From the IMG/VR virus record IMGVR_UViG_3300029258_002032, positions 1-39,381 of that record: a stretch of DNA of 39,381 nucleotides; one strand, given 5' to 3'. This document shows positions 19,730 through 36,512 of the stretch, one piece after another; positions within the stretch are counted from its first letter, which is position 1, and each line of letters starts with the position of its first letter. The position numbers and the translations under genes were made by a program. This DNA is from a virus. Under the pieces are notes generated by a model that had not been told where the DNA came from, made no database searches, and saw nothing but the letters and a program-made list of their open reading frames with translations.

Positions 19730-20323
19730 TTAGTTCCAAGTGTAGTGTGATGATGGGAGCCGCCGCATTCGCCGGGTCCGATGGCGCATGGGCGGGGTGT
19801 GATAATAAACGCTGAGCTGAACATGATCCACGGACGGTTCGGAGCTGACCCCGGATGCGGTGGCGCATTGGGTGTTGAGGCTGAAGCTAGCATCCTTTAG
19901 TTTGGCCGGGGTGGGAGCCCATGTCCATCTATCATCCGCATCGCCGTACTGCTGGTGGGCATCGGCGGCGGGCAATAGCTCGTTATCGGCCTTGTCATCG
20001 CCGATGTCGCCGCCGCCATATGCGAACTGCATCTTGACGCACTTGCTCGCTTCGGCGGCAACGGCATCGTGCCATTCGATGTCAACCATCAGCCCCTCTA
20101 TGGTCGCGTTGTCGGGGAGGCGTAGCATCCGGCCTGATGCTCCGTCGTAGGTGCATCGGAGGTCGGTGGTGATACCGAGGAACCCGAGCGCGGCGTAGGC
20201 GTACTGATTGTTGCTTGCCAGTGCATCGGAAGCGTTGGTCCATGCCGTCAGTGGGCCGGGGAAAGTTACCATTCCTGTCGGGGTAATGTTCAAGTGCGTC
20301 AGTTTGGTGGGGGGCAGGGCCAT
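19730..20323 (-). CDS. Beta-rich virion-like protein upstream of scaffold, function unknown
   Basis: This 197-aa protein has an AGGAG site before its ATG. The middle (residues 60-175) alternates beta strands and acidic loops (LMVDIEWHDAV, CVKMQFAYGGGD, VDHVQLSVYYH) and ends with an arginine-rich tail. The composition is that of a structural or surface domain, not an enzyme. It sits between the two membrane-associated proteins and the scaffold, so it may be a head or fibre component. No family was recognised. Confidence 0.65.
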   Translation of the reverse strand: MALPPTKLTHLNITPTGMVTFPGPLTAWTNASDALASNNQYAYAALGFLGITTDLRCTYDGASGRMLRLPDNATIEGLMVDIEWHDAVAAEASKCVKMQFAYGGGDIGDDKADNELLPAADAHQQYGDADDRWTWAPTPAKLKDASFSLNTQCATASGVSSEPSVDHVQLSVYYHTPPMRHRTRRMRRLPSSHYTWN

Positions 20324-20333
20324 CGGTGACTCC

Positions 20334-20945
20334 TTACAGGGGGGAAACGAAGCCGGTTTCGGTGACGGCGTTGACGAGCTTCCGATTAGCCTTGCCCATC
20401 TGATAGAGGGCGGCTGAGATAGCGTCGTCTTTGAAGCTCATGTCAAATTCCGTACTGCTCCGCTTCGCCAGTTGGATCGCGTCGATCATCTGAACGTGTT
20501 TGCGGCGGTTGTACGCGGCTCGCCCGATACCCAAGGCTCCGAGCACGAGCGAGCCGAGCGTGCCGTAGGGCGGCGGGATGAAGGGGATGATGGAGCCGAC
20601 CACATCAACGCTGCCATCCTCAAGTACCTTCGCACCGGCGATCAGCTCGTTTGCTTTCTCAAGTGCATCATGCGTCGATGACAGTCCGGCGGTGGCCTTG
20701 TCGATGACCGCGAGGGCGGCGGCCTTCATTTCGTCATCCTCGATCTTCTCCGCCTCCGCCCGTTGTGCTTCGACCATCGCTTCGTGTTCGGCGATGGTTT
20801 CCTCAAGTGCGGCGGCATCCGCCTTGATCGCCGCGTACTGCTCGGCGGAAATCTGCGGCGTGCATCCGACGTCGTTGAATGCCGCAAGGGCAATGAGAAT
20901 CAGGACGGCGAAGACAATGGGCCAGTGGTTCTTTCGTGGCGTCAT
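20334..20945 (-). CDS. Membrane/lipoprotein-like protein, candidate spanin or lysis protein
   Basis: The start is placed at ATG 20945 (203 aa), which has GGAG seven bases upstream; a longer in-frame extension overlaps the preceding gene and is basic junk-like sequence. Residues 8-23 form a hydrophobic helix ending at NDVGC (Cys28), an atypical lipobox, so a lipoprotein is possible but not certain. Residues 35-110 are a coiled coil. A second hydrophobic stretch (YGTLGSLVLGALGIG) follows. Small size, coiled coil and its partner upstream suggest lysis or envelope function. Confidence 0.6.
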   Translation of the reverse strand: MTPRKNHWPIVFAVLILIALAAFNDVGCTPQISAEQYAAIKADAAALEETIAEHEAMVEAQRAEAEKIEDDEMKAAALAVIDKATAGLSSTHDALEKANELIAGAKVLEDGSVDVVGSIIPFIPPPYGTLGSLVLGALGIGRAAYNRRKHVQMIDAIQLAKRSSTEFDMSFKDDAISAALYQMGKANRKLVNAVTETGFVSPL

Positions 20946-20955
20946 AACGTAACTC

Positions 20956-21297
20956 CTATGGGGTGGGGGTTTGACTGACAGCTTTGGACAGAACCGCGAA
21001 GGCTGCTCCGGTGAGCGACACGAGCACGGCTCCGACGATGATGGATAAAGCCCATGCGGGAAGTCCTCGGATTCCCTCGACCTTTTCCTTCGTCTCGTCC
21101 GCAACCTTCTCGACGGCTTTTATTCGTGCCGCGTGATTGACGCATGAGAGATTGCGGACGGTCTTCTGCGTCTCGTTCGCGGTTTGCTCAAGGCTGGATA
21201 TCCGCCCGACGATGCCGGGCTCCTTGGTGGTGCCGCGCAGCGCGGTGTCGATTGAATCGAGCTTGTCGTGAATCGGTCCTAGGTCATCGTTGGTCAT
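20956..21297 (-). CDS. Coiled coil plus C-terminal membrane helix, holin/XhlA-like
   Basis: This protein of about 113 aa starts at one of two adjacent ATGs; the second (21297) has better spacing from GAGG. Residues 5-78 are heptad-like and charged, and residues about 80-105 form one hydrophobic helix (WALSIIVGAVLVSLTGAAFAVL) with a short periplasmic or cytoplasmic tail. This is the layout of XhlA-type haemolysin/holin accessory proteins. It precedes another envelope-type gene, forming the best candidate lysis pair in the genome. Confidence 0.6.
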   Translation of the reverse strand: MTNDDLGPIHDKLDSIDTALRGTTKEPGIVGRISSLEQTANETQKTVRNLSCVNHAARIKAVEKVADETKEKVEGIRGLPAWALSIIVGAVLVSLTGAAFAVLSKAVSQTPTP

Positions 21298-21308
21298 CAT
21301 GGGCCTCG

Positions 21309-23798
21309 TCAGAATGGAATCTCGGGCGTGGATTCCTTGGGGGGTGGGTCGTTCTCGGCCGATTCCTCTTCCGAGTAGTATCGGCCGCCGGGTAGCTGTT
21401 GCTGGTTTCTCGGCTGATCCGGCGGGCCGTGGTCGGTCATGTCATAATCCCATGAGCCGGTGTCCTCGGCCGGTGCGCTCTCGCCGATCCAAAGCCAGCG
21501 ACGTTCGCTGCCATGATGCGGATCGTCGTGTAACGGCTTCAACGGTTTGAGGCCGCGAAGTCCGTCGATCCACATCGTGGTACCCTTCAGCGACTTTGTG
21601 TGAACTATGGTGCCTTCGTGGACCAGCCAAGTGCGAAGATCCTTCTTGCTTACCGATAGGCGGATCTCATCAGCGTTGAGGCCCATCCGTTCGGCGATCA
21701 GGTGGAAGATCCGACTGATCTCGATGGCATCATTCAGGTCTTGGTCAACCTCTGGGCGGCCCGACTTGATGTAGGAAGCCAGCTCGTTAGCGTTGGGGAA
21801 GCAGCATAGAACGCTGTCCTGCCACAAGCCCCAGCGATCGCGCAGGGCCGGATCCAGCTCGGCAACGGGGCCGCGTTTGAGAATGTCAAGGGCGTCGGCC
21901 ATAAGTTGTGCGCGGTTCTCTGCGATGAATCTGGATGACCAGTCCTCGAAGTCTCCCGCGTCGTGTTTGGGTTTGCCGACCTTGATGACAACCGAGCGAT
22001 CGGCAAGGTCTTTGCTGAGCGCCGGGGTGTTCGCGGTGATTAACCAAGTGAGAATGTTCGGACGTGAGAATTGTCCGAGATACATTCGTTTGCCGTCGAT
22101 TACTTCGCTGGTGACGGCGGCTTCCAGTCCGGAGCGGGCCAGCTTCCCGCGTACATTGTCGATGATGACCGCACGCTGTCTTAGAGCGCGATCATCAAGT
22201 AATCGAGTGCGGACGGTTTCCCAATCCTCGTGCTCCCCGGCGGTGAAGGCTCCGCCCCACGGCTCGGCGAGCAAGAGTACGGTCCGCGTTTTGCCGGAGC
22301 CCTGTCCGTGGTCCGATGTGTAGACGAAGGCGGGACGTCGGCCGGGAGGGCCGCCCCATGCCATCGTGAGAAAACATGCGATCATCAGATCGCGGTCAAG
22401 GTCCGTCTCTGCATTCAGGTGTTCGCGCAGCTCCTTCAGGGCGTCGCCGGTAGCACGGGGGAGCCGCATGGGTTGGTAGTAACAATTCTGCCGGGGTGGC
22501 TCGTGCGGCAGGAACTCGATGGATTCGTAGTTGGGTGTCGCTTTGGCTTTCATGCTGGCAAAGAACTCTCCTTTGGTGGGCGGGTTGCGAACGTCGCCGG
22601 TCAATTGGTCCTCCGCTTCACGCTTCGTCCATCTGACTTCGGCTTCTTCGCTAAGGTAGGCAAAGAGTGAGTCGGCTCGGTCCAGTGTCCAGACGTCATC
22701 AGGGTCGGGCAATTCTCCTTCAGGTGGTGCTTGTACGGGTGCGGTGAATAGAAGGCCGTTGCATCGCCGGGGCCAGTTGCCGGTAATTCTGAATACCTGA
22801 TCGCGGATCAAGGGCATGGGGATGGCAATCCGTCGTTTGCCTTCCTCATCCTCATCGTCGATTACGTTGGTGATTAGCGCCCGGCCGGTGGCTTCCGCGA
22901 GGGTGGCGATCTCCTGGGCGAACTCGCTGACGAGTGCTCGGAGCCGGTTGCCGACTTCGCCGCGATCGTCATCTTCCCCGCAGTTGTTGCCGATCCATTT
23001 GCGACAGTCCTTCGTCTTCTCAGGCGGCATCGCCCATCTGACGGGATGGCCCCAAGCCTGTGCTAGCCCGCCGGTTATCTTCTTCGCTCCATCCTTGCCC
23101 GGCGTCTCTCCTTTCTGCGTCATGTCGAACTCGCCGATGACGATGATCTCGCGGTCGCGGAGTAGGGGGATGAGCTGAGTCAGTCCGCCGGTGTCGTTGG
23201 TTCTGCCGATGGCGGGTATGCCGACCGACAGGCACGCGGCGGAATCGCTGAACCCTTCGACGGCGAAGATCGGGCCTCGCATCTTTCGCCAGTCGTGGTC
23301 TACCGGGATGTAGAGTCCGTTGGCGTAGTCCGATGACTTCTTGCGATGGTCCTTCGGGATCAACCATTTCTCGCCGTTCGGGGCGCGACAGTGGATCCCG
23401 CAGATATCACCGTTGGCCTTGCGAAGCGGGACGGTGAAGCACTTGTAATGCTTCTTGCCGTACCATTCACACCAGCCGGGTTGAAATGGTTTGATGGCGG
23501 CGATGGGCAAGCCTAGACAGTGGGCCAGCTCGCCGAGTTTGGAGGCGTCGAGTGCCTTGCGGAACTCGGTGTGAAGATCATCCCAGCTCGGCCCGCCATA
23601 CTTTGGCTCGTTGCCAACGCGGTAGATGCCGCCGCGTGCGGGTTTCTTCTTCGACTTCTGACGATGCCAACCCGGCGGCGGGTGCTCCGTGTTCATGCAG
23701 CAAACAACGTCGCCGTTCTCCGCCGTGCTGCAATACTTCTTCGCGCCGCAGAGCGGGCACGGTTGGCCTTGAGTTACGCGGGTCCATCCACCTGCCAT
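21309..23798 (-). CDS. Primase/helicase: zinc finger, Toprim and AAA+ helicase in one chain
   Basis: This 829-aa replication protein has a zinc-binding start (Cys14, Cys17, Cys23, Cys33/34). A Toprim-like domain follows, with EGFSD at 181-185 and EFD at 223-225. The C-terminal helicase has Walker A GQGSGKT (498-504), Walker B VIIDN (544-548), sensor WLITAN (585-590) and a possible arginine finger in DLADRS. It should prime and unwind phage DNA; the polymerase must come from the host. The chain ends in EIPF after an acidic, proline-rich segment, like the C-terminal tail of bacterial SSB. The ATG is five bases after the csrA stop, with a GGAG inside csrA, so the two are coupled. Confidence 0.9.
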   Translation of the reverse strand: MAGGWTRVTQGQPCPLCGAKKYCSTAENGDVVCCMNTEHPPPGWHRQKSKKKPARGGIYRVGNEPKYGGPSWDDLHTEFRKALDASKLGELAHCLGLPIAAIKPFQPGWCEWYGKKHYKCFTVPLRKANGDICGIHCRAPNGEKWLIPKDHRKKSSDYANGLYIPVDHDWRKMRGPIFAVEGFSDSAACLSVGIPAIGRTNDTGGLTQLIPLLRDREIIVIGEFDMTQKGETPGKDGAKKITGGLAQAWGHPVRWAMPPEKTKDCRKWIGNNCGEDDDRGEVGNRLRALVSEFAQEIATLAEATGRALITNVIDDEDEEGKRRIAIPMPLIRDQVFRITGNWPRRCNGLLFTAPVQAPPEGELPDPDDVWTLDRADSLFAYLSEEAEVRWTKREAEDQLTGDVRNPPTKGEFFASMKAKATPNYESIEFLPHEPPRQNCYYQPMRLPRATGDALKELREHLNAETDLDRDLMIACFLTMAWGGPPGRRPAFVYTSDHGQGSGKTRTVLLLAEPWGGAFTAGEHEDWETVRTRLLDDRALRQRAVIIDNVRGKLARSGLEAAVTSEVIDGKRMYLGQFSRPNILTWLITANTPALSKDLADRSVVIKVGKPKHDAGDFEDWSSRFIAENRAQLMADALDILKRGPVAELDPALRDRWGLWQDSVLCCFPNANELASYIKSGRPEVDQDLNDAIEISRIFHLIAERMGLNADEIRLSVSKKDLRTWLVHEGTIVHTKSLKGTTMWIDGLRGLKPLKPLHDDPHHGSERRWLWIGESAPAEDTGSWDYDMTDHGPPDQPRNQQQLPGGRYYSEEESAENDPPPKESTPEIPF

Positions 23799-23802
23799 CG
23801 GC

Positions 23803-24039
23803 CTACTCCTGTTCGGGTGGGCCGAAGCCGTTGGTTAGAAGGGTTCGGGCGGCGGCGGACAGCTCGCTTCGGACAATGGCGATATCCGATGGGAAGTTGA
23901 GCCGGAGCTGTGCTCCGTCGCGGCAGGTGGAGACTACCTCGATCTCACCGATTGGTCCGCTTGAATCTGAGAGTAGAATCTTCTCGCCTACTCGGCGGGT
24001 GAGCACAAGGCCGCGTGCTGGTGAGGGGTCGCGTGCCAT
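23803..24039 (-). CDS. csrA: CsrA-family RNA-binding translational regulator
   Basis: This 78-aa protein contains the CsrA core LVLTRRVGEKILL at residues 11-23 and IAIVRSEL at 53-60. Arg15 and Arg16 match E. coli Arg6 and Arg7, and Arg57 matches Arg44, the residues that hold the GGA motif of target RNA. It has nine or ten extra N-terminal residues before the first beta strand, and a Val where E. coli has His43. The ATG is chosen from the GGAGG six bases upstream. It is the first gene after a strong promoter and is coupled to the primase/helicase. Its own leader carries two CAAGGATG elements, so autorepression is likely. Confidence 0.9.
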   Translation of the reverse strand: MARDPSPARGLVLTRRVGEKILLSDSSGPIGEIEVVSTCRDGAQLRLNFPSDIAIVRSELSAAARTLLTNGFGPPEQE

Positions 24040-24077
24040 CCTTGGCCTCCATCATCTTGTGGTCGTGTTCATCCTTG
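24037..24077 (-). promoter_or_regulatory. Two candidate CsrA-binding sites in the csrA leader
   Basis: CAAGGATG occurs at 24077-24070 and again at 24044-24037, where its last three bases are the csrA start codon. This equals the core CARGGAUG of the known CsrA consensus. A third GGA is the Shine-Dalgarno itself (GGAGG, about 24050-24046). The two full sites start 33 bases apart, within the range known to allow bridging by one CsrA dimer. Confidence 0.6.
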
Positions 24078-24094
24078 ACGCAACGCATGGGGGA

Positions 24095-24123
24095 AATCTA
24101 GTGATTCGGAAATTCGATGTCAA
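24095..24123 (-). promoter_or_regulatory. Sigma70-like promoter of csrA and the replication unit
   Basis: On the minus strand TTGACA (24123-24118), a 17-base spacer and TAGATT (24100-24095) form a near-ideal sigma70 promoter. It lies directly after a U-tract terminator, so it starts a new transcription unit. The predicted leader is about 48 bases before the csrA ATG. Confidence 0.75.
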
Positions 24124-24142
24124 TGCGTACAGAATGCGAACG

Positions 24143-24175
24143 AAAAAAACGGCGGCCCCCAAATGGACCGCCGCC
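24143..24175 (-). terminator. Rho-independent terminator after the recombinase unit
   Basis: A 9-bp GC-rich stem with one G-U pair (minus strand 24173-24165 with 24158-24150) and a six-base loop is followed by seven Ts (24149-24143). It ends the unit that runs from the HTH gene through the 213-aa gene. Confidence 0.85.
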
Positions 24176-24185
24176 TCATACGCTG

Positions 24186-24204
24186 CCCGGCGACGTTCGC
24201 CGGG
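24186..24204 (-). terminator. Hairpin directly after the 213-aa gene stop
   Basis: CCCGGCG/CGCCGGG form a perfect 7-bp stem with a five-base loop immediately downstream of the stop codon at 24205-24207. With the U-tract terminator just beyond, it makes a double hairpin at the end of this unit. Confidence 0.5.
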
Positions 24205-24846
24205 TTAGGCCGTGGTGACTGGCGCTGGCCGTGGTTCTTTGCGCAGTACGATGTGGCGATCGCAATCGGGATCGTAGACAAGCAGTAACCGGCCCTTGGG
24301 GTGGCGGTCCTTCTGCTTGAAGTGGGGCAGGGCGTCTTCGAGTTTCTGTCGGCAGACGACGACTTCAAGCAGGTGTCCGTCTCCGCAGATCGCGTTGGCT
24401 TCCTTGACGGTGAGGGCTCGTGGTGGTTTGCTCATGGCGGCTCCTACGGCGGCAAGCATCGCGTTCTTCAGCTTGTCAACCGTGATAGCATCCTCCGATG
24501 CATCGGGTTTGAGTTCGTGTGTGTCATCACCGAAAACGTATTCGATGATGCCGGGGAGGGTTTCGTGAATGAACGTGTACGCTTCCTGAAGCCGACCGCG
24601 AAGTATCTCATTGCTCATGCGTGCGGATTCAAGGCGGCCGGTCTTCTCGGCGATGGCGTCGATGTGCCAGTCCGCAACCGACAGCCAGCCAAGGTAAATC
24701 TCCGGCGACGACTTCGATGGATTGGATTCGTCGCCGGTGGCAAAGAATGGTGGGGCTTTAACGAATACTTCGCGGAGCTGGCCCGCGATCAGGTCGCGTA
24801 TCGCGTCGTGGGCGAAGGCTTTGGAGGTTGAGTGTGCATCAGTCAT
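24205..24846 (-). CDS. Unknown 213-aa protein at the end of the recombinase unit
   Basis: The ATG at 24846 overlaps the end of the preceding gene and has no obvious ribosome site, so re-initiation is likely. Residues 1-120 are mainly helical. The C-terminal part has basic and beta-strand segments (GRLLLVYDPDCDRHIVLRKEP near the end) and a CGDGHLLEVVVCRQ motif with two cysteines. I do not recognise the family. It is the last gene before two stacked hairpins and the terminator. Confidence 0.7.
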   Translation of the reverse strand: MTDAHSTSKAFAHDAIRDLIAGQLREVFVKAPPFFATGDESNPSKSSPEIYLGWLSVADWHIDAIAEKTGRLESARMSNEILRGRLQEAYTFIHETLPGIIEYVFGDDTHELKPDASEDAITVDKLKNAMLAAVGAAMSKPPRALTVKEANAICGDGHLLEVVVCRQKLEDALPHFKQKDRHPKGRLLLVYDPDCDRHIVLRKEPRPAPVTTA

Positions 24847-25174
24847 GGGGTTTCGTGCTCTTTGTTGGAGTCAGTATGAAATTTGCCGGGCTGCTGCTGC
24901 TTCGCTGGCGGATGATGAGCTGCTTGGCGTCGGGGGGAAGGTCGAAGCGGTAGGTTGTGGCGGTGGTGGGGAAGTGAATCGCAACTCTGCCCTGGCTGAG
25001 CGAGCGTGGGATTTCGATACGTTCCTTGATCTCCCTTGCCATCTGCTCATCAACCAAGGTTCGGAATCGCTCGACGGTCAACAGGGTTTCGGCAGGGGGC
25101 AGGCTGATCGTCTGCCGGTTGAACGCCTCAGTTGCGGTGAAGAGTGAGCGGCGGTTCTTCTTCATCTTCTTCAT
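24839..25174 (-). CDS. Unknown small basic protein overlapping the acidic-tail gene
   Basis: The start is uncertain. ATG 25174 (111 aa) has AAGGGA six bases upstream, while in-frame ATGs lie at 25189, 25177 and 25165. The N-terminus MKKMKKNRR is strongly basic and is encoded by the same GA-rich bases that encode the acidic tail of the preceding gene in another frame. The rest has a helical segment (FRTLVDEQMAREIKERI) and a beta-like end (TYRFDLPPDAKQLII). No domain was recognised. Confidence 0.6.
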   Translation of the reverse strand: MKKMKKNRRSLFTATEAFNRQTISLPPAETLLTVERFRTLVDEQMAREIKERIEIPRSLSQGRVAIHFPTTATTYRFDLPPDAKQLIIRQRSSSSPANFILTPTKSTKPHD

Positions 25175-25577
25175 CATCGTTCCCTTCATCCTTGGATCCG
25201 CAGAAGCCGAGCCCCATACTTTCCAGCTCATCATCAGGTTTGGCGAAGTCGTCTACTTCGATCTCGGCACGTTCCCACCAGCGTTCATCCGGGCTTCCGT
25301 ATTCGCTGAGCTGGCCCGCATCAACCATCGTGATAGCAGCGGCCCGGCACAGGTCGCATCGGCACTTGAAGGTAAACCCCGGCTTGATGTCGGCGAGCTG
25401 AACAAGGTGAGCGAAGCCCGCACCCTGCATGTGGGCGACGTTGAGGGCTTCCTGCATCTGTCCGTTCTGCTGCATCGCTCGATCGAGTCGGGCTTTCGCG
25501 TCATCCAGTCGCCGCATCGTCTTTGCAAGCTGCTGTTCCAACTGGACGATGCGTTGTGTGGCCCATTTGTCGCTCAT
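25128..25577 (-). CDS. Unknown coiled-coil protein with a Cys cluster and acidic tail
   Basis: This 149-aa protein starts within the recombinase stop (ATGA). Residues 8-50 are a clear coiled coil (IVQLEQQLAKTMRRLDDAKA). A CRCDLC cluster at about residue 72 could bind metal. The C-terminus is very acidic (GNDDEEDEEE), a tail often found in DNA mimics or proteins that hold basic partners. It may act with the recombinase, whose gene it follows, but that is only positional. Confidence 0.68.
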   Translation of the reverse strand: MSDKWATQRIVQLEQQLAKTMRRLDDAKARLDRAMQQNGQMQEALNVAHMQGAGFAHLVQLADIKPGFTFKCRCDLCRAAAITMVDAGQLSEYGSPDERWWERAEIEVDDFAKPDDELESMGLGFCGSKDEGNDDEEDEEEPPLTLHRN

Positions 25578-26197
25578 GCTGAACGCCTTTCATAGCAGCT
25601 ATCCGCCGCCGCTTCCTTGTCTTCGTGCATGACACCTGCGTACATGTTTGCGGTTGTCTCTACGCTCTGGTGCCCTAGATGATCCTGAACGTGCTTGATG
25701 TTCTTCGTGGTGCGGAGCATGAAGGTCGCGCAGGTGTGGCGGGCTGAGTGTATTGAAAGGCCGGGGTCCAGTCCGGCCTTGGCGATGGCCGTCTTCCATA
25801 TCTTCTGAAGGCCGGAGACTGACAGGCGGCCGCGTTGGCCCACGAATAACGCATCCGTCTGGCCGACGCCTTCGCCGTGCGCCTTCTTCCATGCGATAAA
25901 CTCGCGCAGGTGGGCCGTAACCTTCTTGCCGATGACCACGGTTTCATAGCCGGGCTTCTTCCGCTTCGACCTGTAGGCGAGAATTGAATTGGTGCTGTGG
26001 TGAAAGTCGGAGACGTTGAGCCGTGCTAGCTCGTTGACGCGGAGCCCGGTAATGAGGGCAAGGTCAACGAGCATCCACGAGATAACACCTTGGCGGCGGC
26101 CGTGCTTCAAGTCGTGGATCGACCACAGTTCGGCGTTCTCTCGCAGGCGGGTGACTTCCTCTTCGTTCATATACTTCGTGCGTTCGACGGCGGGCAT
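25574..26197 (-). CDS. Tyrosine recombinase, compact (catalytic domain only)
   Basis: This 207-aa recombinase has all catalytic positions of the family: Arg53 in TGLRVNEL, lysines at 78-81 before the second hairpin strand, His150 and Arg153 in HSARH, His176 in LGHQS and the nucleophile Tyr186 in NMYAG. It would cut and rejoin DNA for integration or dimer resolution. The ATG at 26197 has AGGAG six to seven bases upstream. The usual N-terminal core-binding (SAM-like) domain is absent, so it is about 100 residues shorter than XerC/D or lambda-type integrases. The genes around it overlap or nearly touch, leaving no room for a conventional attP next to it. Confidence 0.88.
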   Translation of the reverse strand: MPAVERTKYMNEEEVTRLRENAELWSIHDLKHGRRQGVISWMLVDLALITGLRVNELARLNVSDFHHSTNSILAYRSKRKKPGYETVVIGKKVTAHLREFIAWKKAHGEGVGQTDALFVGQRGRLSVSGLQKIWKTAIAKAGLDPGLSIHSARHTCATFMLRTTKNIKHVQDHLGHQSVETTANMYAGVMHEDKEAAADSCYERRSA

Positions 26198-26206
26198 GTT
26201 CAACTC

Positions 26207-26623
26207 CTAGAAAAGAAAGATAGGGCGGCGGCCTTCGTCAAGTAGTCTATCGTAAAGCTGTTGGGCCTCGAAAACGGTGCGTTTGGTGTAGATGGGGAGG
26301 CCGGTCCAGAAGGGGGTCGGGATCTGCTTTATTGTTTCTGGTTTAGCGGCGATACGGCACAGGTGTTCCATCCCCTTGTCGGTGGTGACAACGCAATCGA
26401 CGGCGGCGTGGGGAATCTTCTTCAACAGATCATTGTGAAGCTCGCTGAGGGTCTTCAGGAAGCTGACGCCGGGGGTGTGCTCCGGTGGCGGGATGTTGTC
26501 GGCGTCGAACGGATAAAACCTGTAGTTGTCGGGGTCGATCATGTGAGTCCAAGCCTCTTCGCGGGTGAAAGGCCGGACGTTGGCCGGTGGCCGAGCGTCC
26601 GGTGGTGGGTGGATGCTTAGCAC
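26207..26623 (-). CDS. Unknown 138-aa protein upstream of the recombinase
   Basis: The start is probably the GTG at 26623, overlapping the preceding stop. The protein is proline-rich at the start (HPPPDARPPANVRPF), then mixed helix and strand, and ends in IFLF. A region about residues 70-100 (AAVDCVVTTDKGMEHLCRI) holds two cysteines. I do not recognise it. It is in the same operon as the recombinase, nine bases before it. Confidence 0.6.
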   Translation of the reverse strand: MLSIHPPPDARPPANVRPFTREEAWTHMIDPDNYRFYPFDADNIPPPEHTPGVSFLKTLSELHNDLLKKIPHAAVDCVVTTDKGMEHLCRIAAKPETIKQIPTPFWTGLPIYTKRTVFEAQQLYDRLLDEGRRPIFLF

Positions 26624-27219
26624 ATCGCCCGTTCGCCGTCAGTGACGAGCCGATACGCCGTCTCGAACTGACTCTTCGGGCTCCAGCTCTCGTAGTTGTC
26701 CGGCGGGTAAACCACGAGATAACCGTCGTCGTCGGCCTTGTCGGCGTTGCACGCCTGATCCTTGCGGGCGCAGTAATCGCCGTACTTCATCGGCTGGGCC
26801 TGAATGATCTTGCTGCCGATGTAAGTTTCGAGCTTGTCTATTTGCTGATTCTCCTTTGGTGTGAGGGAAGGCTGAGACTTCAGGTGAAGCCCCAGCTTGG
26901 TGAGTGATTCGGGGTACGTCTCCGGATAGAAGGGGTGGACGCCTGCCAGCTCGCGGCAGATTTGAGCGATGGCCTGAATTCCCAGCTCCTTGACGGCGGC
27001 GATGGTTTCCCGATTGGAGGTAATCATGTCGCCCATCGAGCATTCTTCATGCAGCTCATTCAGGCTGGTGCGAAGCGAGGCGATCTCCATCTTCATCTTC
27101 TGATGATGATCCAGTGCCCGCTTGGCGTTCTCGCTCATCGGCCGTTCATCATCGAAGTTGCCGACGATGAATACCTCGGTGACGTCAAGCCCTTCATATG
27201 GGTCGGATATCTCGCCCAT
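26617..27219 (-). CDS. Phage early protein with a SWSPK..FE.AYR C-terminal motif
   Basis: This 200-aa protein has AAGGAG nine bases before its ATG. The N-terminal half is helical (residues 35-60 coiled coil). The C-terminal part, from KYGDYCARK through GYLVVYPPDNYESWSPKSQFETAY, matches a motif common in small phage early proteins of unknown function. It is probably a nonstructural protein expressed with the regulator and recombinase. Confidence 0.72.
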   Translation of the reverse strand: MGEISDPYEGLDVTEVFIVGNFDDERPMSENAKRALDHHQKMKMEIASLRTSLNELHEECSMGDMITSNRETIAAVKELGIQAIAQICRELAGVHPFYPETYPESLTKLGLHLKSQPSLTPKENQQIDKLETYIGSKIIQAQPMKYGDYCARKDQACNADKADDDGYLVVYPPDNYESWSPKSQFETAYRLVTDGERAMC

Positions 27220-27232
27220 CTGTCCCTGCTCC

Positions 27233-27526
27233 TTACAGTTCGGTTATCTCATCGCGCAGCTTGCAGACTTCCTGATGAAGCTCATCGCAAAGAGTGATAA
27301 GCATGGTGATTTTGGCGGGGTTCTTCGGGGTGGTGGGTTCCGGCTTCGGCTCGCCTACGCCGAATCGGGTATCCGCCCCATAGAGCGATTGATTAAGGTG
27401 GTCTACGCGGTGGCGGGCTCCGTGGGCGATGCCGAAGGTGGTATCGAGCAAAGCGAGGGCGTTGTCGATGCCGTTCTCGATCTGCGAGCTGGCCTCGGCT
27501 GTTCCTGTGGTTGGTGTGCTGGTCAT
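27233..27526 (-). CDS. Unknown small helical protein
   Basis: This 97-aa protein starts in an ATGA overlap with the preceding stop and has GGAG upstream. Residues 15-50 and 70-97 are helical, the second being a heptad-like segment (LITLCDELHQEVCKLRDEITEL), with a proline-rich linker between. This suggests an oligomerising adaptor or regulator. No family was recognised. Confidence 0.65.
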   Translation of the reverse strand: MTSTPTTGTAEASSQIENGIDNALALLDTTFGIAHGARHRVDHLNQSLYGADTRFGVGEPKPEPTTPKNPAKITMLITLCDELHQEVCKLRDEITEL

Positions 27527-27804
27527 TTCAGGTACTCCGTTTCACCTTTGCTGCTGAGTTTGTAGATGAGAAGTTGGTAAGTGCTGCACTGTTCGCGGCG
27601 ACTGATCTTGATCCATCTTCGCCGCTTCAATGAGCGGAATGTCTTATGATGGATGGGCTTCCACCCTTCCTTGCCGTGGATGATGCCGGTTTCATCGTTG
27701 ACCGGCATCAGGGTTGGTTGAGTGTAGATGTAATGACGGATCCGCTGTCCACGGTACAGCATTTCCATCAATTCCATCTGCTTCGGCGTCGGGCGGCGGG
27801 CCAT
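27523..27804 (-). CDS. Winged-helix-like small protein
   Basis: This 93-aa protein shows a pattern like a winged helix: two helices, then HHKTFRSLKRRRWIKI as a recognition helix and wing, ending YKLSSKGETEYLK, which resembles the C-terminal strand and helix of MarR/PadR-like domains. It is basic overall. A DNA-binding role is plausible. The Shine-Dalgarno GGGGAG overlaps the stop of the preceding gene. Confidence 0.6.
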   Translation of the reverse strand: MARRPTPKQMELMEMLYRGQRIRHYIYTQPTLMPVNDETGIIHGKEGWKPIHHKTFRSLKRRRWIKISRREQCSTYQLLIYKLSSKGETEYLK

Positions 27805-27806
27805 TG

Positions 27807-28607
27807 TCAGTCTCCCCAGCCTTCAGCGATCGCGGTCGCGGCCTTGGTGAAGTGTTTATCGACCTCGGGGATGGGGATTCCCTTGTGTGACCATCGCCAG
27901 TTCGACCACATGCAGATCCCGAAGCGGTCGGGGTTCTGCGGATCGTAAAATTCATCCCGCAACCGTTCGGCGAGTTCGGACAGCCATGAGGTTGAAAGCC
28001 GATGGTTATCTCTCGTGCCTTCGGGGCACACCCAAGCCCTGACCGGGCCTTCGGTGAGTGTCATTGCGTTGGCGACGTTGGCGATGGCGTAGCCGAGTTC
28101 CTTCTTGTCGGCACGGTGGTAGTACGCGGACGGGTGGACGGAATCGCCGTACATCGCTCCGGCGTTCCGCCAAGGGTGCGGGCGGAAGTTGCCGCTTCGA
28201 TCGCACTTGGGCGTTCCCCATAGCCCCCATTTGATAGGGCCGACGCTGAAGGTCTTGATGAGCCGGGTAAACATAGTAATCTCATCAAGGGCGACGCGGC
28301 GGGCATCGTCGGTGGTGGCGCACCATTCCATCCAAATCTGTTCTTCCTCCCGGTTGACGCATCCGGCAATATCGAAGGGCTCGATCGGGTGAGCCTCGGC
28401 CAGCTCGATTGCCTGTGCTAGCAGGAAAGGTGAATACGGAATCACCTTGTATCGCTTCGCCTTGGGTAGAGCCTTCATCTGCTCGTGGTAATCCGGCTCA
28501 ACATAAAGGTGTTCCGTAATCCAAGGCATCGACTTGAAGCCGAGGTCGAGGATGGCCTTCTTTCCGTCCTCGCTCGTCTGGTTGAAGACCATTGTTGATA
28601 GTGGCAT
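27807..28607 (-). CDS. Unknown 266-aa protein, possible TIM-barrel fold
   Basis: The start is ATG 28607, with AAGGA at good spacing; an in-frame TTG upstream is less likely. Strand-like segments recur with acidic or aromatic ends (YKVIPYSP, IKWGLWGTPK, VRAWVCPEG, RFGICMWSNWRWS), a rhythm seen in TIM-barrel glycoside hydrolases. Trp/His/Asp-rich loops (FRPHPWRNAGAMYGD, YYHRADKKE) could form an active site. No endolysin was recognised elsewhere, so a glycan or cell-wall hydrolase is one possibility, but its place among early genes argues for caution. Confidence 0.7.
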   Translation of the reverse strand: MPLSTMVFNQTSEDGKKAILDLGFKSMPWITEHLYVEPDYHEQMKALPKAKRYKVIPYSPFLLAQAIELAEAHPIEPFDIAGCVNREEEQIWMEWCATTDDARRVALDEITMFTRLIKTFSVGPIKWGLWGTPKCDRSGNFRPHPWRNAGAMYGDSVHPSAYYHRADKKELGYAIANVANAMTLTEGPVRAWVCPEGTRDNHRLSTSWLSELAERLRDEFYDPQNPDRFGICMWSNWRWSHKGIPIPEVDKHFTKAATAIAEGWGD

Positions 28608-28737
28608 TCGAGTTCCTTTCAAGGTTCATGGCGGTGTGGACCCAGCCGAACGGAAGCCAGAAGGCGGCCGCGATCGTCGGTGCTATCACCGTCCAGTAGA
28701 TGATTGAGTCAAGAGCCTTCTTCCTTCGTTGGTTCAT
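28498..28737 (-). CDS. Possible small single-span membrane protein overlapping two genes
   Basis: An ATG at 28737 opens a 79-aa frame containing one hydrophobic helix (SIIYWTVIAPTIAAAFWLPFGW) after a basic start (NQRRKKALD). It overlaps the end of the zinc-finger gene by 29 bases and the start of the 266-aa gene by 110 bases, and fills the only gap between them. A GAGAAG ribosome site is weak. It could be a holin-like or superinfection protein, or a chance frame. Confidence 0.4.
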   Translation of the reverse strand: MNQRRKKALDSIIYWTVIAPTIAAAFWLPFGWVHTAMNLERNSNATINNGLQPDERGRKEGHPRPRLQVDALDYGTPLC

Positions 28738-29350
28738 CAGTCTTCTCGATGGGTACGGTGGTTCGGTCAATGGCACGGACAGCGTTCAACGCGAGGCCGC
28801 TGATTTGGATGAAGGTATGGCGGGCGGCCATACGGTCTTTCTCGATCGCGGCGTGGTCTATCCGCATCAGGTACGTCTCGATGAAGTTCGCCCATTCGGT
28901 GAGGCTGTGATTATCGTCATGGGACAGGCCCCATTTCTTCAGGGCTGATTCAGCTTCTTGGAACAGGTCAAGTAACGCCTGATCCGGCTGGACGATTTTG
29001 GGCGGGCGGTTGTCGATAAGGATCTGCCCGGTACAGTGTGGATACTGTCGCTCCATCCATCGACGGAAGTTCGGAGCGATGCCGGGCCATTTAAGGTCCG
29101 CCGGAATCGTCTTGGCATCCGGTGAGCGATAGAGCGTGTAACAGGTGCTAGCGTACATCTGCCGGAAGGTGCTGCCTTCATCCGCACTGAGCCGACGCCA
29201 GCCGTTGAAGGTGACGGTTGACGTGCCGGTGCAAGCGATCAGCTTGCCGCCGGGGTGGCTGAGGCATTCGCCGGAATTGTCACAGACGGGGCATGGTTGC
29301 TCATCCGTGGCTTCGGTCCATGCGGGGCGGTCGAGGATCGGGATAGTCAT
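28709..29350 (-). CDS. Stand-alone primase-type zinc finger protein
   Basis: This 213-aa protein has an N-terminal zinc motif with Cys20, Cys23, Cys29 and Cys40 and a following GW. The spacing and surrounding residues (QPCPxC, then G and C, then GW) closely match the zinc finger of the primase/helicase at 21309-23798. The remaining 160 residues are helical and unlike Toprim or helicase. It may bind single-stranded DNA or modulate priming. The ribosome site AAGGAG is good. Confidence 0.75.
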   Translation of the reverse strand: MTIPILDRPAWTEATDEQPCPVCDNSGECLSHPGGKLIACTGTSTVTFNGWRRLSADEGSTFRQMYASTCYTLYRSPDAKTIPADLKWPGIAPNFRRWMERQYPHCTGQILIDNRPPKIVQPDQALLDLFQEAESALKKWGLSHDDNHSLTEWANFIETYLMRIDHAAIEKDRMAARHTFIQISGLALNAVRAIDRTTVPIEKTDEPTKEEGS

Positions 29351-29359
29351 TTCAACTCC

Positions 29360-29593
29360 TTATCTGCGGCGGGTTTGTCTGAGTGCTTTAACGGCGGGGT
29401 GTTCTCCGCCTAGATGAAATTCTCCAAGTCTCTTCAGCCATTGGTGGCCGCTGTTGTTCAATGGTCGCCTTCGACCTGGGTTCACTTTGCGTTCTCTGAT
29501 GAAGGTCCATGAGTTCGGGTGAATCCTTCGCCCGGCGGGTTCATGGCCGTGGTCCCACAGTGCATCGACTAGGGCCTTTTCCGTCTTGTTCAT
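29360..29593 (-). CDS. Unknown small basic protein
   Basis: This 77-aa protein is rich in Arg, Lys and His and has no hydrophobic segment. The pattern (ALVDALWDHGHEPAGRRIHP, then RRRPLNNSGHQWLKRLG) could be a small nucleic-acid-binding protein. The ribosome site AAGGATG lies across the stop of the HTH gene and also resembles a CsrA site. Confidence 0.62.
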   Translation of the reverse strand: MNKTEKALVDALWDHGHEPAGRRIHPNSWTFIRERKVNPGRRRPLNNSGHQWLKRLGEFHLGGEHPAVKALRQTRRR

Positions 29594-29605
29594 GGTGCTG
29601 CATCC

Positions 29606-29857
29606 TTACAACAACTCCGGGGTTTCGTTGGCGTCGCGGATTTCTTCGAGCCTGTCGAGTGCCGCCTTGATGCGGTCAAGCCAGTCGCATGTCGGGTTGC
29701 CGCCCTTATTTAGAAACGTGCTGAGCCCGCACCGATTCACTTCAGCCAGCTCGGCCAGCTCGGTTACGGTGACGTTCGGCAGAAACTTCAACCGGCGACG
29801 TATCGCGCGGCGGTGCCGTGCTGCGGATGGTTCGCGGGTTGTCTTCTTCTTCGCCAT
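29606..29857 (-). CDS. Small HTH regulator, candidate repressor/Cro
   Basis: The ATG at 29857 (83 aa) has AGGAG nine bases upstream; a longer in-frame version lacks a ribosome site. Residues about 28-52 (VTVTELAELAEVNRCGLSTFLNKG) form a helix-turn-helix like small XRE/Cro proteins; the N-terminus is basic and could contact DNA. It is first in its unit, behind a terminator and its own promoter. A 16-bp operator-like sequence in that promoter recurs (13 of 16 bases) over the -10 box of the early promoter at 34590. Confidence 0.72.
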   Translation of the reverse strand: MAKKKTTREPSAARHRRAIRRRLKFLPNVTVTELAELAEVNRCGLSTFLNKGGNPTCDWLDRIKAALDRLEEIRDANETPELL

Positions 29858-29878
29858 CGAGATTGACTCCTTGGCGGA

Positions 29879-29907
29879 ACCGTAGATTAAAACCAACACT
29901 TCCGCAA
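29879..29907 (-). promoter_or_regulatory. Candidate promoter of the HTH gene
   Basis: Minus-strand TTGCGG (29907-29902), 17 bases, then TACGGT (29884-29879). Both boxes are imperfect, but the site is located just after a U-tract terminator and 22 bases before the HTH start codon, and it overlaps the operator-like sequence 29882-29897. Confidence 0.45.
29882..29897. promoter_or_regulatory. Operator-like sequence at the HTH promoter
   Basis: GTTGGTTTTAATCTAC (minus strand) differs at only three positions from GTTGATTTTATTCAAC at 34586-34601. It overlaps the presumed -10 box of the HTH gene, as expected for an autoregulated repressor. Confidence 0.5.
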
Positions 29908-29917
29908 GTCTATTCTG

Positions 29918-29953
29918 AAAAAAAGACCGGCCCCGCTTTCGCGGGGCTCGGTC
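29918..29953 (-). terminator. Rho-independent terminator of early unit 1
   Basis: A 12-bp stem with one bulged A (29953-29941 paired with 29936-29925) and a GAAA tetraloop is followed by seven Ts (29924-29918). It lies 17 bases after the stop of the 187-aa zinc-ribbon gene. Confidence 0.9.
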
Positions 29954-29969
29954 CGTCGCTCGCTTCCGA

Positions 29970-30533
29970 CTATTCGGAGTCTACCTCCAGAGTGGGGGAG
30001 TTTGCAAGGAAAGCAGCACGAATCCAGTCGGGTCCGTGTTCGCGGGCGTCGCGTGCTAGCTCCTGAAAACGTGTGGACAGCTCAAGCCGCATCGCAAGGG
30101 GCAGAAGCGGTCGCCAGTACGGCGAGCATCCGGAAAGGTTGACGGGGTGAAGCAGCTCAAGCAGAGCCGCACAGTGGGGACAGGCGTAGCCCTCGGCGTC
30201 GTAAAGCTCTCGTGCCGCGTGCTGGGCAACTCCCGGCGATACCTCAAGAAAACAGACCGGACAGGGTAACGGGTGGGCGTTGCGTTCTTCGATGAATGCT
30301 CTCTGCTGGTGAATTGGTCCACGGTCTGCCTCGCTGGCGGTTGCCTTCTCGATTGAACGGATAAGATCGGTCCATGCGCTGACGGAATCAACTCCACAAG
30401 CCCACGGGCGCAGGTTGGTGAAGGTGTGCCGGGTGCGTTCGATCTCTTCTCCCGACGTGCCGCGAAGCGTGGCGATGAAGGGGCGGGCGGTCTGCTCCAT
30501 CTGCTGTCCGTTGTCAGTCGCTACGGTGTTCAT
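29970..30533 (-). CDS. Zinc-ribbon protein of early unit 1, function unknown
   Basis: This 187-aa protein has AGGAG upstream of its ATG. A CPVC at about residue 91 and a CPHC at about residue 119 form a probable zinc ribbon. Flanking regions are helical, including a hydrophobic LLPLAMRLELS segment. It is the last gene of the operon that starts with the 100-aa protein and the MoxR ATPase. A role in nucleic-acid or protein binding is inferred from the zinc ribbon only. Confidence 0.68.
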   Translation of the reverse strand: MNTVATDNGQQMEQTARPFIATLRGTSGEEIERTRHTFTNLRPWACGVDSVSAWTDLIRSIEKATASEADRGPIHQQRAFIEERNAHPLPCPVCFLEVSPGVAQHAARELYDAEGYACPHCAALLELLHPVNLSGCSPYWRPLLPLAMRLELSTRFQELARDAREHGPDWIRAAFLANSPTLEVDSE

Positions 30534-30570
30534 GGTTTCTCCTGTCTGAGTGAGAATGAAGTGAGAGAAT

Positions 30571-30596
30571 CGCGGCGGCCGACGTCGGCCGCCGCG
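30571..30596. repeat. 26-bp perfect palindrome between methyltransferase and zinc-ribbon genes
   Basis: The sequence is its own reverse complement over 26 bases, made of two 13-base arms with no spacer. It lies in the 75-base gap between two co-oriented genes. On the minus strand it is followed by ATTCTCTC, a weak U-rich end, so it may be a partial terminator; a protein-binding site is also possible. Confidence 0.7.
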
Positions 30597-30608
30597 TTGC
30601 GTCGTCTC

Positions 30609-31976
30609 TTAGATGTCGCTGGTATCGTCGATGATGATGATGCGGGTCTTAACGCCAGTCGCGGGGAGAAAGGCTCCGGCGGGGACGTCGATTACCGCGT
30701 GTTCTTCGTTTTCCAGCCATTCGCGGAAAGCCGTAGCTTTCTTGTCAGTGCGGAAGAAAAGCCCCTCGGAGCAAATCGCTACCATGCGGCCGCCGGGGGC
30801 CAGTCGTTGTCGCATGTGGCGGATATGGTCTGCATCCTGCCCCTTCTCAAAGGGCGGATTCATCACAATTCGATCGTAGTGGCGGGCCTGAAACGTCAGA
30901 GCGTCGGCGGTTTCTACATTGTGCCCCTTGAGGGTCAAGAGTTCTGCTAGCTCGTGATTGATCTCGACACAATAGACGCGAGCGCCGATTGCGGCGGCCG
31001 CGTCGGCGAGCCGTCCGGATCCGGCGGACGGCTCTAATACTTCGGAATCCGGTTCGATCTCGGCATACTCGATAACCTGGGCCGCGATATCCTCCGGCGT
31101 GGGGAAGTAGCCGGGGATTTTGGCAAGTGATAGCTCGGCCTCTTTGCGTCTGATGTCGGCGGCCTTCTGCTTCGCTTCCCGGCGTCGCTGTTCATCAGGC
31201 GGCGTCGGGTTGCCGTTCATCAGTTCCGATAGCATGGCGAAGCGTTCGGCGTTGGCGGCGCTGTATGCGTCCGTCGCTTCCTCGGCGGCCTTCCTTGTGC
31301 GGATGTCCGCGAGTTCGGGCGGGATGGTCCCGGCGTCGTGGTGGTCCGCGAGGGTAAAGAGGGCCTGTTGTGTGAGTTCCATCCGCTTAGCGTCTTCCCG
31401 CATAGATGCGGCGATCCGCAAGCGTCGCGGCGTGGGGTTCTGGTGAGCTATCGCGGGGTTTTCCTTCGCTTCAATCTGCGGCGTCATGTTGTAAGCGAGG
31501 GTTCGGAGTTTCCGGGCGATCTCCGGGCCGTCCGTGGGCCGTGGTGACGGTTTGGGCTTCGGCCGATCTGCGGGGCGGGGTCGCGGGCGGTCGCTCTGGT
31601 TGGCGGTCTGGCGGTCAAGCCATCGCTCTAGCTTTGCCTGAAGTCGCGGGGGGAGCGGTTCGGCGGGATTGAGGGGCCGCGTCTGGTCTTCGTGAAACAA
31701 TACAACCCGCGATCGGCGGAAGCCGGTAGGCTCGTCGGCTTCGTTGAAGCCGGTAGGGGTGAGCATGTCAACCCGTGTACCGTGCTCTCCCTTCTTAACT
31801 ATGCGGCCGCAAGCGAGCCAAGGTGTAAACGCTAGCACGTTGTAACGTGGGCGTATTTCAGTGGTCTTGTATCCGGCCTCGTGAAAGGCGGCCAGCGTCG
31901 CGGCGTCATTCTTCGCCGATGGATGCTGGCGGATGCGGCGGATAGCTTCGGTGGGTGTTAGTCGCTCGGCTACCAT
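30609..31976 (-). CDS. ArdC-like N-terminus fused to N6-adenine DNA methyltransferase
   Basis: The start at ATG 31976 (455 aa) has AGGAG seven to eight bases upstream. Residues about 25-100 (NVLAFTPWLACGRIVKKGEHGT) resemble the ArdC single-strand DNA-binding domain of plasmid antirestriction proteins. A proline/arginine-rich linker and helices follow. The C-terminal domain is a gamma-type adenine methyltransferase: GYFPTP at 289-294, SAM motif EPSAGSG at 315-321, catalytic NPPF at 373-376. It would methylate adenine in phage or host DNA, probably to evade restriction or mark sites. No cognate nuclease is present. The target sequence is unknown; GCTAGC is a candidate worth testing. Confidence 0.87.
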   Translation of the reverse strand: MVAERLTPTEAIRRIRQHPSAKNDAATLAAFHEAGYKTTEIRPRYNVLAFTPWLACGRIVKKGEHGTRVDMLTPTGFNEADEPTGFRRSRVVLFHEDQTRPLNPAEPLPPRLQAKLERWLDRQTANQSDRPRPRPADRPKPKPSPRPTDGPEIARKLRTLAYNMTPQIEAKENPAIAHQNPTPRRLRIAASMREDAKRMELTQQALFTLADHHDAGTIPPELADIRTRKAAEEATDAYSAANAERFAMLSELMNGNPTPPDEQRRREAKQKAADIRRKEAELSLAKIPGYFPTPEDIAAQVIEYAEIEPDSEVLEPSAGSGRLADAAAAIGARVYCVEINHELAELLTLKGHNVETADALTFQARHYDRIVMNPPFEKGQDADHIRHMRQRLAPGGRMVAICSEGLFFRTDKKATAFREWLENEEHAVIDVPAGAFLPATGVKTRIIIIDDTSDI

Positions 31977-32028
31977 GATGTTTCTCCTATGGCGGTAGGG
32001 TTTCAAGTTGAAAGCCGGGCGGCGGCGG

Positions 32029-32925
32029 TCAAGCCGTCGCCCGGTCCAAGTCGGTGCTAGCTCGGTTCACGGCCGCGAGGGCGGCGGCCTCGGTGCGGAT
32101 GTCGGTATCTAGGATGTAATGAAAGCCGGAGCGGTCCGCGTCGGGAAGCGGGGCCTCTGATCCGAATAGGTCGCATATCTTCACGGGTGCGAGCCGGGCC
32201 GATGCGGTCATCATCAGACCGCGAATAAATCCGACGTCGCATAGAGCCGTTGCAAGGGCGGAAACGTCAAGCGGTTTCCCGGCGGATTTGATGATGATGT
32301 ATTGTAGAAGGTGGTTAAAGCGTTGAGCGTTCCGGCGATCGTGTCCGAGATTGGCGGCGGTGTCGAACGCTACGATTTCAACGCTGTAACCGGCGGCCGC
32401 GTACCTGTCGGCAAGGGCAAGGGCGGCGGCTCCACGATATAAAAGCTCGTGCGGTTTACGCTTCGCGGAGATACTGAGATTAACGCCGATCCGGACTAGT
32501 GAAGCGGGGGCGGGTTCGCGTTGCGCTTCGCTCCATCCGTTCGGCAACCGGCAAAGGTGGGCGATGGGGTCTAGCTCTGAGCCGTACTCGCGGAAGTGCC
32601 GGATTCTCCGGCGGGGACGTCCGGCGATGGGGGCGGCCGTGGTGATTCGGTCCGCTATCGCTTCGATGGTTTCTAGGATGCTGGGGCGGGGCGTTATCAA
32701 CGCTTCGCGGAGTGATTCGACGGTATGGCCGCCATAGAATGACGAGTCCGGCCGCATCTGGCGAAGGTGCATATCAGCGAGCACGCGGTTATGTCCCTTG
32801 CGGTTACGCTGAAGGGCGAAGCCGTCGCGGGTGGCGAAGTTAAAAAGGTCGGTAGGGCTTTCCCATTCCCAGCGGTGCCAACCGTCGCGGCCGCGTTGAA
32901 TTTCGTCGGCGGTGGTGGGGTGCAT
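32029..32925 (-). CDS. VWA-like partner of the MoxR ATPase with degenerate MIDAS
   Basis: This 298-aa protein begins directly at the stop of the ATPase gene (TAAATG), which signals a functional pair. Residues about 140-290 look like a von Willebrand A fold: a strand LVRIGVNLSIS, then RGAAALALADRYAAAGYSVEIVAFD. The usual metal-binding DxSxS is NLSIS here (Asn149, Ser151, Ser153), so the first Asp is replaced. Later IIIKSAGKPLD and ALCDVGFIRG fit the remaining strands and helices. MoxR ATPases typically work on VWA partners, as in CobS-CobT and CbbQ-CbbO. The fold is inferred by eye. Confidence 0.65.
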   Translation of the reverse strand: MHPTTADEIQRGRDGWHRWEWESPTDLFNFATRDGFALQRNRKGHNRVLADMHLRQMRPDSSFYGGHTVESLREALITPRPSILETIEAIADRITTAAPIAGRPRRRIRHFREYGSELDPIAHLCRLPNGWSEAQREPAPASLVRIGVNLSISAKRKPHELLYRGAAALALADRYAAAGYSVEIVAFDTAANLGHDRRNAQRFNHLLQYIIIKSAGKPLDVSALATALCDVGFIRGLMMTASARLAPVKICDLFGSEAPLPDADRSGFHYILDTDIRTEAAALAAVNRASTDLDRATA

Positions 32926-34026
32926 TTATTCGTCCCTCGCTTCTGCGCGGTTGCGTTCTTCCTCGCTCCAAGGCTGGAAGTATTCAGCCTTCACGGTCGC
33001 CAGTGTTCCCCCTGCTAGCAGTTCGCGGGCGGCGTTAATGACAAGCCGAGTAGAAGCTACGCGGCGGAGTCGATGGCGTTTGATCGCGTCGCGGAGTGAT
33101 TCGATCCAGTCGAGTAGTTCGGCGGCGGCCGATGTGGTTAGATTCTCGTGCGCTATGGCGTGCTCTAACCGCCGATCATAATCGACCGTAACCGTTGCCA
33201 GTGTGAAGCGATCCAACGTGGCGGCGTCAAGCGGATTCCGGCCGACGTATTGGGCATCGGCTCCGGTGCCGTAGGTATTGGCGGCCGCGACTATCACGGC
33301 GTCGGGGTGGCGTTCGATGACGTCGGCGGGATCGAACGGGTTGGAAAACTGCCCGTTTGCAAGTGCCGCATTGATTGAGACGAGCACATTAGGGTCTGCG
33401 GCGTCGATCTCATCCAATAAGAAAACTCCGCCATTGCGGAACACTTCGATGAAGGGTGTCGGCTGATGTTTCCATGAACCGTCTGCCTGTGGCATCGGCC
33501 GCCCGGCTATGTGGTGCTCACCTACTCCGGCCGACAAGCTGAGGAAAGCGAAGCGGGGGGCCTCGATCGCTTCGGCGAAGTGCCGGGCGGCGGTGGTCTT
33601 TCCCGTTCCGGCGGGGCCGACTAGATATAAGTTACGATGACCCACGAGGTATTTATGAGCCATCGTCTCTACGGCTTCATGTGAGCCGGTGGGGACAGTC
33701 ACCACGGCATCAGGGGCGGTGAGTGTTACGGGCTTCGGCTTCGCGGCGGCGATCTCTTCGCGTGCTATCACCCTCATCCGCGTTTCGTGTGCTAGCTTGT
33801 CGATGTCGGGGTTTCCGGCTTCGGCGGGGGTGCTAGCTTCGATGGCGGGAAGGTCGGGGCGGTTGAAGCTGGTACGCTTGCCGGTGAGCAGGGCGATTAG
33901 ATCGGCCTTGGTTGCCGATACAACGGCGGCTCCGCGTGCTAGCTGCTGCTGCCGTACCATCTTGCGAAGCTGGGAGACGGTGAGGGTGTCTAGCTGTTCT
34001 GGTGGGTGTGTCATGGTGGCGGCCAT
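32926..34026 (-). CDS. MoxR-type AAA+ ATPase with N-terminal SAP-like segment
   Basis: The start at ATG 34026 (366 aa) has AGGAG ten bases upstream; the longer frame runs through a hairpin and is unlikely. Residues 12-49 (LDTLTVSQLRKMVRQQQL... KADLIALL) resemble a SAP DNA-binding motif. The AAA+ domain has Walker A GPAGTGKT (137-144), Walker B FLLDEID (202-208), sensor Asn250 in AAANTYG, an arginine finger in LDRF (271-274) and a sensor-2 Arg near 327. It belongs to the MoxR/CobS/NorQ group, remodelling chaperones that act with VWA proteins. In this phage it heads the early operon, with the methyltransferase just downstream. Confidence 0.9.
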   Translation of the reverse strand: MAATMTHPPEQLDTLTVSQLRKMVRQQQLARGAAVVSATKADLIALLTGKRTSFNRPDLPAIEASTPAEAGNPDIDKLAHETRMRVIAREEIAAAKPKPVTLTAPDAVVTVPTGSHEAVETMAHKYLVGHRNLYLVGPAGTGKTTAARHFAEAIEAPRFAFLSLSAGVGEHHIAGRPMPQADGSWKHQPTPFIEVFRNGGVFLLDEIDAADPNVLVSINAALANGQFSNPFDPADVIERHPDAVIVAAANTYGTGADAQYVGRNPLDAATLDRFTLATVTVDYDRRLEHAIAHENLTTSAAAELLDWIESLRDAIKRHRLRRVASTRLVINAARELLAGGTLATVKAEYFQPWSEEERNRAEARDE

Positions 34027-34053
34027 TTCGTTTGATCTCCTGTTAGTCGTGAA

Positions 34054-34085
34054 GCGTGCCGCAAGCCGGTAGGCTGGCGGCACGC
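34054..34085 (-). terminator. Hairpin between the 100-aa gene and the MoxR gene
   Basis: GCGTGCCG/CGGCACGC arms (34054-34061 and 34078-34085), with an inner AGCC/GGCT pair, form a long stem. No U-tract follows in the minus direction. It may tune expression between the first gene and the ATPase. Confidence 0.5.
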
Positions 34086-34102
34086 GGGGCCGTGGTGTGC
34101 GG

Positions 34103-34617: not shown

Positions 34618-34673
34618 GCTGAATCTGAGAGAATGTGTTGTTTTTTTTCATCGCGGCGAGGTAAGCTGTCCGC

Positions 34674-36494: not shown

Positions 36495-36512
36495 GATGTT
36501 TCCTTTGTGCTG

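Follow-up and report, generated by a model that had tools for sequence, protein, structure and literature searches.

A previously undescribed phage carries a csrA-family gene whose leader holds two identical CsrA-type motifs, one of them over the csrA start codon, and self-repression of this gene is likely from the anatomy of the locus. In our preferred reading, to which we give a probability of roughly 60%, a CsrA dimer seated on the start-codon site and bridged to the upstream site would repress translation of csrA and of the 829-aa gene that follows it. Neither csrA genes in phages nor autorepression by CsrA is new; this unit is ordinary in kind and has unusually clear anatomy. The window analyzed here is the whole 39,381-base IMG/VR virus record, in which the features of the unit are as follows.

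24146..24177, minus strand: strong intrinsic terminator (13-pair stem and T tract) ending the upstream operon
24095..24123, minus strand: sigma-70-like promoter TTGACA-17-TAGATT, 10/12 consensus matches
24040..24088, minus strand: csrA 5' leader, some 49 nt long with +1 taken as 24088 (placed by distance from the -10 hexamer and by sequence)
24070..24077, minus strand: site 1, the upstream CsrA-type motif CAAGGAUG, exact match
24046..24053, minus strand: Shine-Dalgarno GGAGG in the stretch AUGGAGGC, the third leader GGA
24037..24044, minus strand: site 2, the CsrA-type motif CAAGGAUG over the csrA start codon, exact match
23803..24039, minus strand: csrA-family gene, 78 aa (Pfam PF02599; PHROG 9500, CsrA-like)
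23778..23791, minus strand: candidate CsrA site, a GTGG-ATGGAC-CCGC hexaloop hairpin at about +11 of the 829-aa gene
21309..23798, minus strand: 829-aa gene, 4 nt after the csrA stop, described from motifs seen by eye

The csrA leader and its motifs

Beyond the end of the upstream gene at 24205 come first the 13-pair terminator (24177-24146) and then the promoter (24123-24095), so csrA very likely opens its own transcription unit, a fuller picture than the first-pass annotation gave, with a +1 that likely falls near 24088. The promoter reported in the first-pass annotation was found where it belongs and is the best of four promoter-like matches within 20000-39381, a region in which such sites are no more numerous than in shuffles.

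That annotation had also described two perfect motifs 33 bases apart, one on the start codon, and a GGA in the Shine-Dalgarno, and both descriptions were correct. Exact copies of CAAGGATG occupy 24077..24070 and 24044..24037 on the minus strand, 33 nt start-to-start, and the Shine-Dalgarno AUGGAGG places its GGA 6 nt 5' of the csrA ATG. The window holds six copies of CAAGGATG against 1.05 expected, and the four beyond the leader pair are all inside genes. Under an order-3 Markov model of the same strand, two CARGGATG within 52 nt have a P of about 5e-6. Among 2,274 gene starts (genes of at least 80 aa from the window and the contigs fetched for comparison, csrA itself not counted), nine had a single CARGGATG in the -60..+3 region and none had a double. 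When the -45..+25 region of 37 gene starts in the window was scanned for ANGGA, only the csrA start had three such motifs.

CARGGAUG corresponds to positions 4-11 of the 12-nt SELEX consensus RUACARGGAUGU (PMC7652899); the SELEX-invariant ACA is incomplete in both leader sites, where UCA and CCA precede RGGA. The range over which CsrA can bridge two sites has been published as 10-63 nt (PMC7652899). The 33-nt spacing of the two leader sites, one of them on the AUG, falls inside it.

Predicted folds place site 2 in a GCC-AAGGAU-GGC hairpin, which forms the ANGGAN hexaloop preferred as an Rsm/Csr ligand, with a hexaloop-closing pair probability of 0.44-0.98 depending on folded length. The corresponding probability for site 1 was 0.06-0.47 on an irregular stem, and this site was often paired in longer folds, while the Shine-Dalgarno GGA was mostly paired. 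Exposure of the GGA in a hairpin loop is thus predicted for site 2 and variable for site 1. The fold of the leader taken whole showed no gain in stability over shuffles (z +0.9 to +2.2), and stability is accordingly no evidence either way.

Two short reading frames also open in the leader (24055-24088, minus strand). An AUG near the predicted +1 begins a 47-codon ORF that has no Shine-Dalgarno and overlaps csrA out of frame, and the AUG of site 1 begins a 6-codon ORF (MNTTTR) that shares the csrA frame and stops short of the Shine-Dalgarno. CsrA control coupled via a short upstream ORF is described for E. coli iraD in work cited in PMC7652899.

The CsrA protein, the downstream gene and other candidate targets

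The csrA product matched Pfam CsrA PF02599 (E=1.3e-7; 31.9 bits, exceeding the curated cut-off of 27) and belonged to PHROG 9500 in PHROGs. It scored 25.8 bits against NCBIfam TIGR00202, the csrA equivalog, below the cut-off of 70.1, which makes it a divergent family member and not a canonical orthologue. Residues L13, R15, R16 and R57 align to L4, R6, R7 and R44 of E. coli CsrA, as expected from the earlier identification of a CsrA core with RNA-contacting Arg15, Arg16 and Arg57, and L13, R15 and R57 are invariant across 38 phage CsrAs. L4 and R44 of the E. coli protein are reported to be particularly critical for RNA binding (PMC7652899). Judged by this alignment, the RNA-contact core of the phage protein is intact. 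The LVLTRRVGE core is preceded by a 9-residue N-terminal extension, compared with 0-2 residues in 37 other phage CsrAs; the extension adjoins the RNA-binding strand beta-1, and the central loops carry changes. The 13 best PDB matches to an AF2 model were all CsrA/RsmA structures (probability 0.69-1.00), the model being monomeric and of modest confidence (pLDDT 65) with a best E-value of 0.009.

A 4-nt gap separates the csrA stop from the next ATG, that of the 829-aa gene, and translational coupling of the two genes is plausible. By eye, the 829-aa protein has a Cys-rich N-terminus/Zn-ribbon, a Toprim-like stretch and a Walker A motif (GQGSGKT). Searches of Pfam, PHROGs, NCBIfam and PDB gave no match over cut-off, primase, Toprim and helicase entries included, and a single-sequence structure prediction was unusable (pLDDT 35). 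With its motifs seen only by eye and no family match, its assignment as a primase/helicase is an informed guess. Of the initial proposal that csrA is coupled to a primase/helicase, the coupling stands as plausible given the short gap, and the family searches left the identity of the partner unconfirmed.

Other candidate CsrA targets were looked for in the phage. The ATGGAC hexaloop near the start of the 829-aa gene formed in a 31-nt fold and not in a 71-nt fold. The gene at 29360-29593 has a TGTTGT-AAGGAT-GCAGCA hairpin over its Shine-Dalgarno (29596-29613, minus strand; six pairs, ANGGAN hexaloop), which is the best-looking further candidate target. A phage CsrA regulon read from an excess of ANGGAN hexaloops at gene starts was considered and set aside, the signal being marginal with automatic gene calls (p 0.02-0.12). 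Such hairpins occurred at 3/38 window genes vs 20/2,466 (p 0.005), a count that includes csrA among the three and depends on thresholds set post hoc. The csrA-positive phages as a group had no ANGGAN hexaloop excess at gene starts. A search for a CsrB-like sponge RNA returned no Rfam match and no GGA-dense intergenic stretch besides the csrA leader.

The phage and other phage csrA genes

The record carries a 144-base terminal direct repeat and is therefore probably a complete genome. Its capsid and connector genes group the phage with HTVC010P-like podoviruses; the capsid has about 39% identity to that of Pelagibacter phage HTVC010P, and capsid alignments extend to distant members of the group. 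CsrA was found in only one of the 43 IMG/VR records searched (G009, locus L092), where its context differs. In IMG/VR no close relative turned up for csrA, the 829-aa gene, the capsid or the gene upstream of csrA, and phage and plasmid collections likewise gave none for csrA.

Elsewhere in the genome, a tyrosine recombinase is encoded at 25574-26203. A 711-nt gene-free stretch (35268-35978) contains repeated palindrome-like GGGACACATGTGTCCC units at 35526, 35705 and 35779 that are a possible operator cluster or origin. In the early region, an AAA_5 ATPase gene (MoxR/CbbQ-like) adjoins a DUF7192 gene (32029-34245, minus strand). ARAGORN called a tRNA-Ala at 7056-7141 on the plus strand, antisense within a 1,946-aa ORF, which is probably a false positive.

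CsrA-family genes have been reported in 30/2,517 phages (PMC7366521). Phage PTXU04 forms smaller plaques when its csrA is knocked down (PMC11879866), and a tentative detection of CsrA in virions is on record for phage JC1 (PMC9144972). Like the gene described here, phage CsrA/RsmA genes often lie in an early DNA-metabolism region (PMC7366521; PMC8450108; PMC11879866; PMC9144972). The present protein shares at most about 45% identity with the other phage CsrAs fetched, and its N-terminal extension and leader motif pair set it apart from them. No CARGGATG occurred in 42 other non-redundant phage csrA leaders, most of which had one or two GGAs, usually that of the Shine-Dalgarno. Phage csrA genes therefore do not share the motif pair as a rule, a result that says nothing for or against a function of the pair in this phage. 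A divergent phage CsrA (MRHLVLTRRVGERLFLH..., with a long inter-strand insert) was also seen at locus L095 (3940-4255), and it too lies shortly downstream of a GC-rich stem and T run.

The genomic neighbors of phage csrA recur. The gene adjoins a YqaJ exonuclease (L146, L099), SSB (L130), RdgC (L161) or RecT and YqaJ (L209), and at L006 it is also beside or near a gene from this set or an exonuclease gene; in VvAW1 it lies near an exonuclease and SSB. These recombination and replication neighbors suggest that phage CsrA is tied to early DNA metabolism, and they fit a role there without proving it.

Self-repression and its alternatives

Two CsrA-binding motifs, one on the start codon, suggest that the phage CsrA, like its E. 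coli counterpart, probably shuts down its own synthesis. We envisage that dimeric CsrA would be made from the gene's own promoter and that, as free protein accumulates, a dimer would bind the AAGGAU hexaloop containing the csrA start codon and bridge to the identical site 33 nt upstream. The bridged dimer would block ribosome access to the Shine-Dalgarno and AUG, so csrA translation would shut itself down and be self-limited. The 829-aa gene would be lowered too through translational coupling, perhaps also through its own hairpin. Binding, repression and coupling are what we infer from sequence. The translational self-repression first suggested for this locus is well supported by its anatomy, namely motif quality, start-codon position and 33-nt spacing, together with the hexaloop-capable hairpins, the separate promoter and the predicted RNA-contact core. 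Weighing against it are the incomplete ACA of both sites, the lack of extra stability in the whole-leader fold, the frequent pairing of site 1 in longer folds, the divergence of the protein with its extension beside beta-1, and the absence of the pair from the 42 other phage csrA leaders.

Known systems offer close parallels. E. coli CsrA represses its own gene via four leader sites, one of them over the Shine-Dalgarno (Yakhnin 2011, as reviewed in PMC7652899); the phage gene likewise has a multi-GGA-site leader with a site in the ribosome binding region, and the same self-repression would be expected. It differs in having two exact CARGGAUG cores, one with the start codon, a single promoter seen, and an operon with a replication-type gene. 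The phage leader also shares with the hcnA mRNA bound by RsmE/RsmA (ANGGAN hexaloop at the Shine-Dalgarno; PDB 2JPP) a C-G closed hexaloop, AAGGAU, at the initiation site, whereas the phage stem is only three pairs and the loop takes in the AU of the start codon.

Other explanations of the leader were weighed against this one. The sites could be targets of host CsrA, gating the phage operon by host physiology, with the phage protein working chiefly on mRNAs of the host or on other mRNAs of the phage. Phage csrA presence does correlate with csrA-bearing hosts (PMC8450108), and the leader motif is the general Csr consensus that host CsrA would bind equally; however, the capsid relatives of this phage point to a mixture of Alphaproteobacteria, Gammaproteobacteria and other phyla, so it is not a given that the host has a CsrA. 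We regard this as unlikely, and it is compatible with self-binding as well. The motifs might instead not be CsrA sites at all, with the AAGG by the ATG serving as a secondary Shine-Dalgarno-like feature that was duplicated, or with both motifs being Lys-Asp codons of a leaderless ORF. Both copies do sit within a longer imperfect repeat of 17-18 nt (CAAGGATGaACACGACC / CAAGGATGgcACGCGACC), matched in quality by 5/1,000 shuffles, and may descend from one local duplication, an origin that would make the two motifs weaker as independent evidence. The genic location of the remaining four CAAGGATG copies points the same way, and both leader motifs read as AAG GAT in the 47-codon frame from 24088. 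Yet csrA already has a good GGAGG 6 nt upstream of its ATG, whereas the AUG at 24088 lacks a Shine-Dalgarno and its ORF crosses csrA out of frame. A pair within 52 nt would be rare even at the coding-sequence rate of about 4 per 39 kb, and we find this account quite improbable.

CsrA is able to activate some targets, and positive feedback could arise here if the protein opened the leader or protected the RNA. The Shine-Dalgarno GGA is mostly paired in predicted folds and could be exposed by protein binding, but binding over the start codon is the arrangement classically associated with repression, and we consider activation very improbable.

Repression by the gene's own product remains the preferred reading. 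A further step, possible and on balance doubtful, is that phage CsrA is a dedicated regulator of a replication operon, its level sensed by the two start hairpins as a timer that would end early replication functions. The earlier ideas that it sets replication timing or redirects host mRNAs are speculative. If self-binding is true, a textbook self-binding csrA leader joined to a replication-type gene would provide a concrete and inexpensive test of CsrA acting on a phage's own messages. More widely, phage csrA genes recur in recombination and replication operons and may be as much a means of controlling phage genes as of taking over the host.
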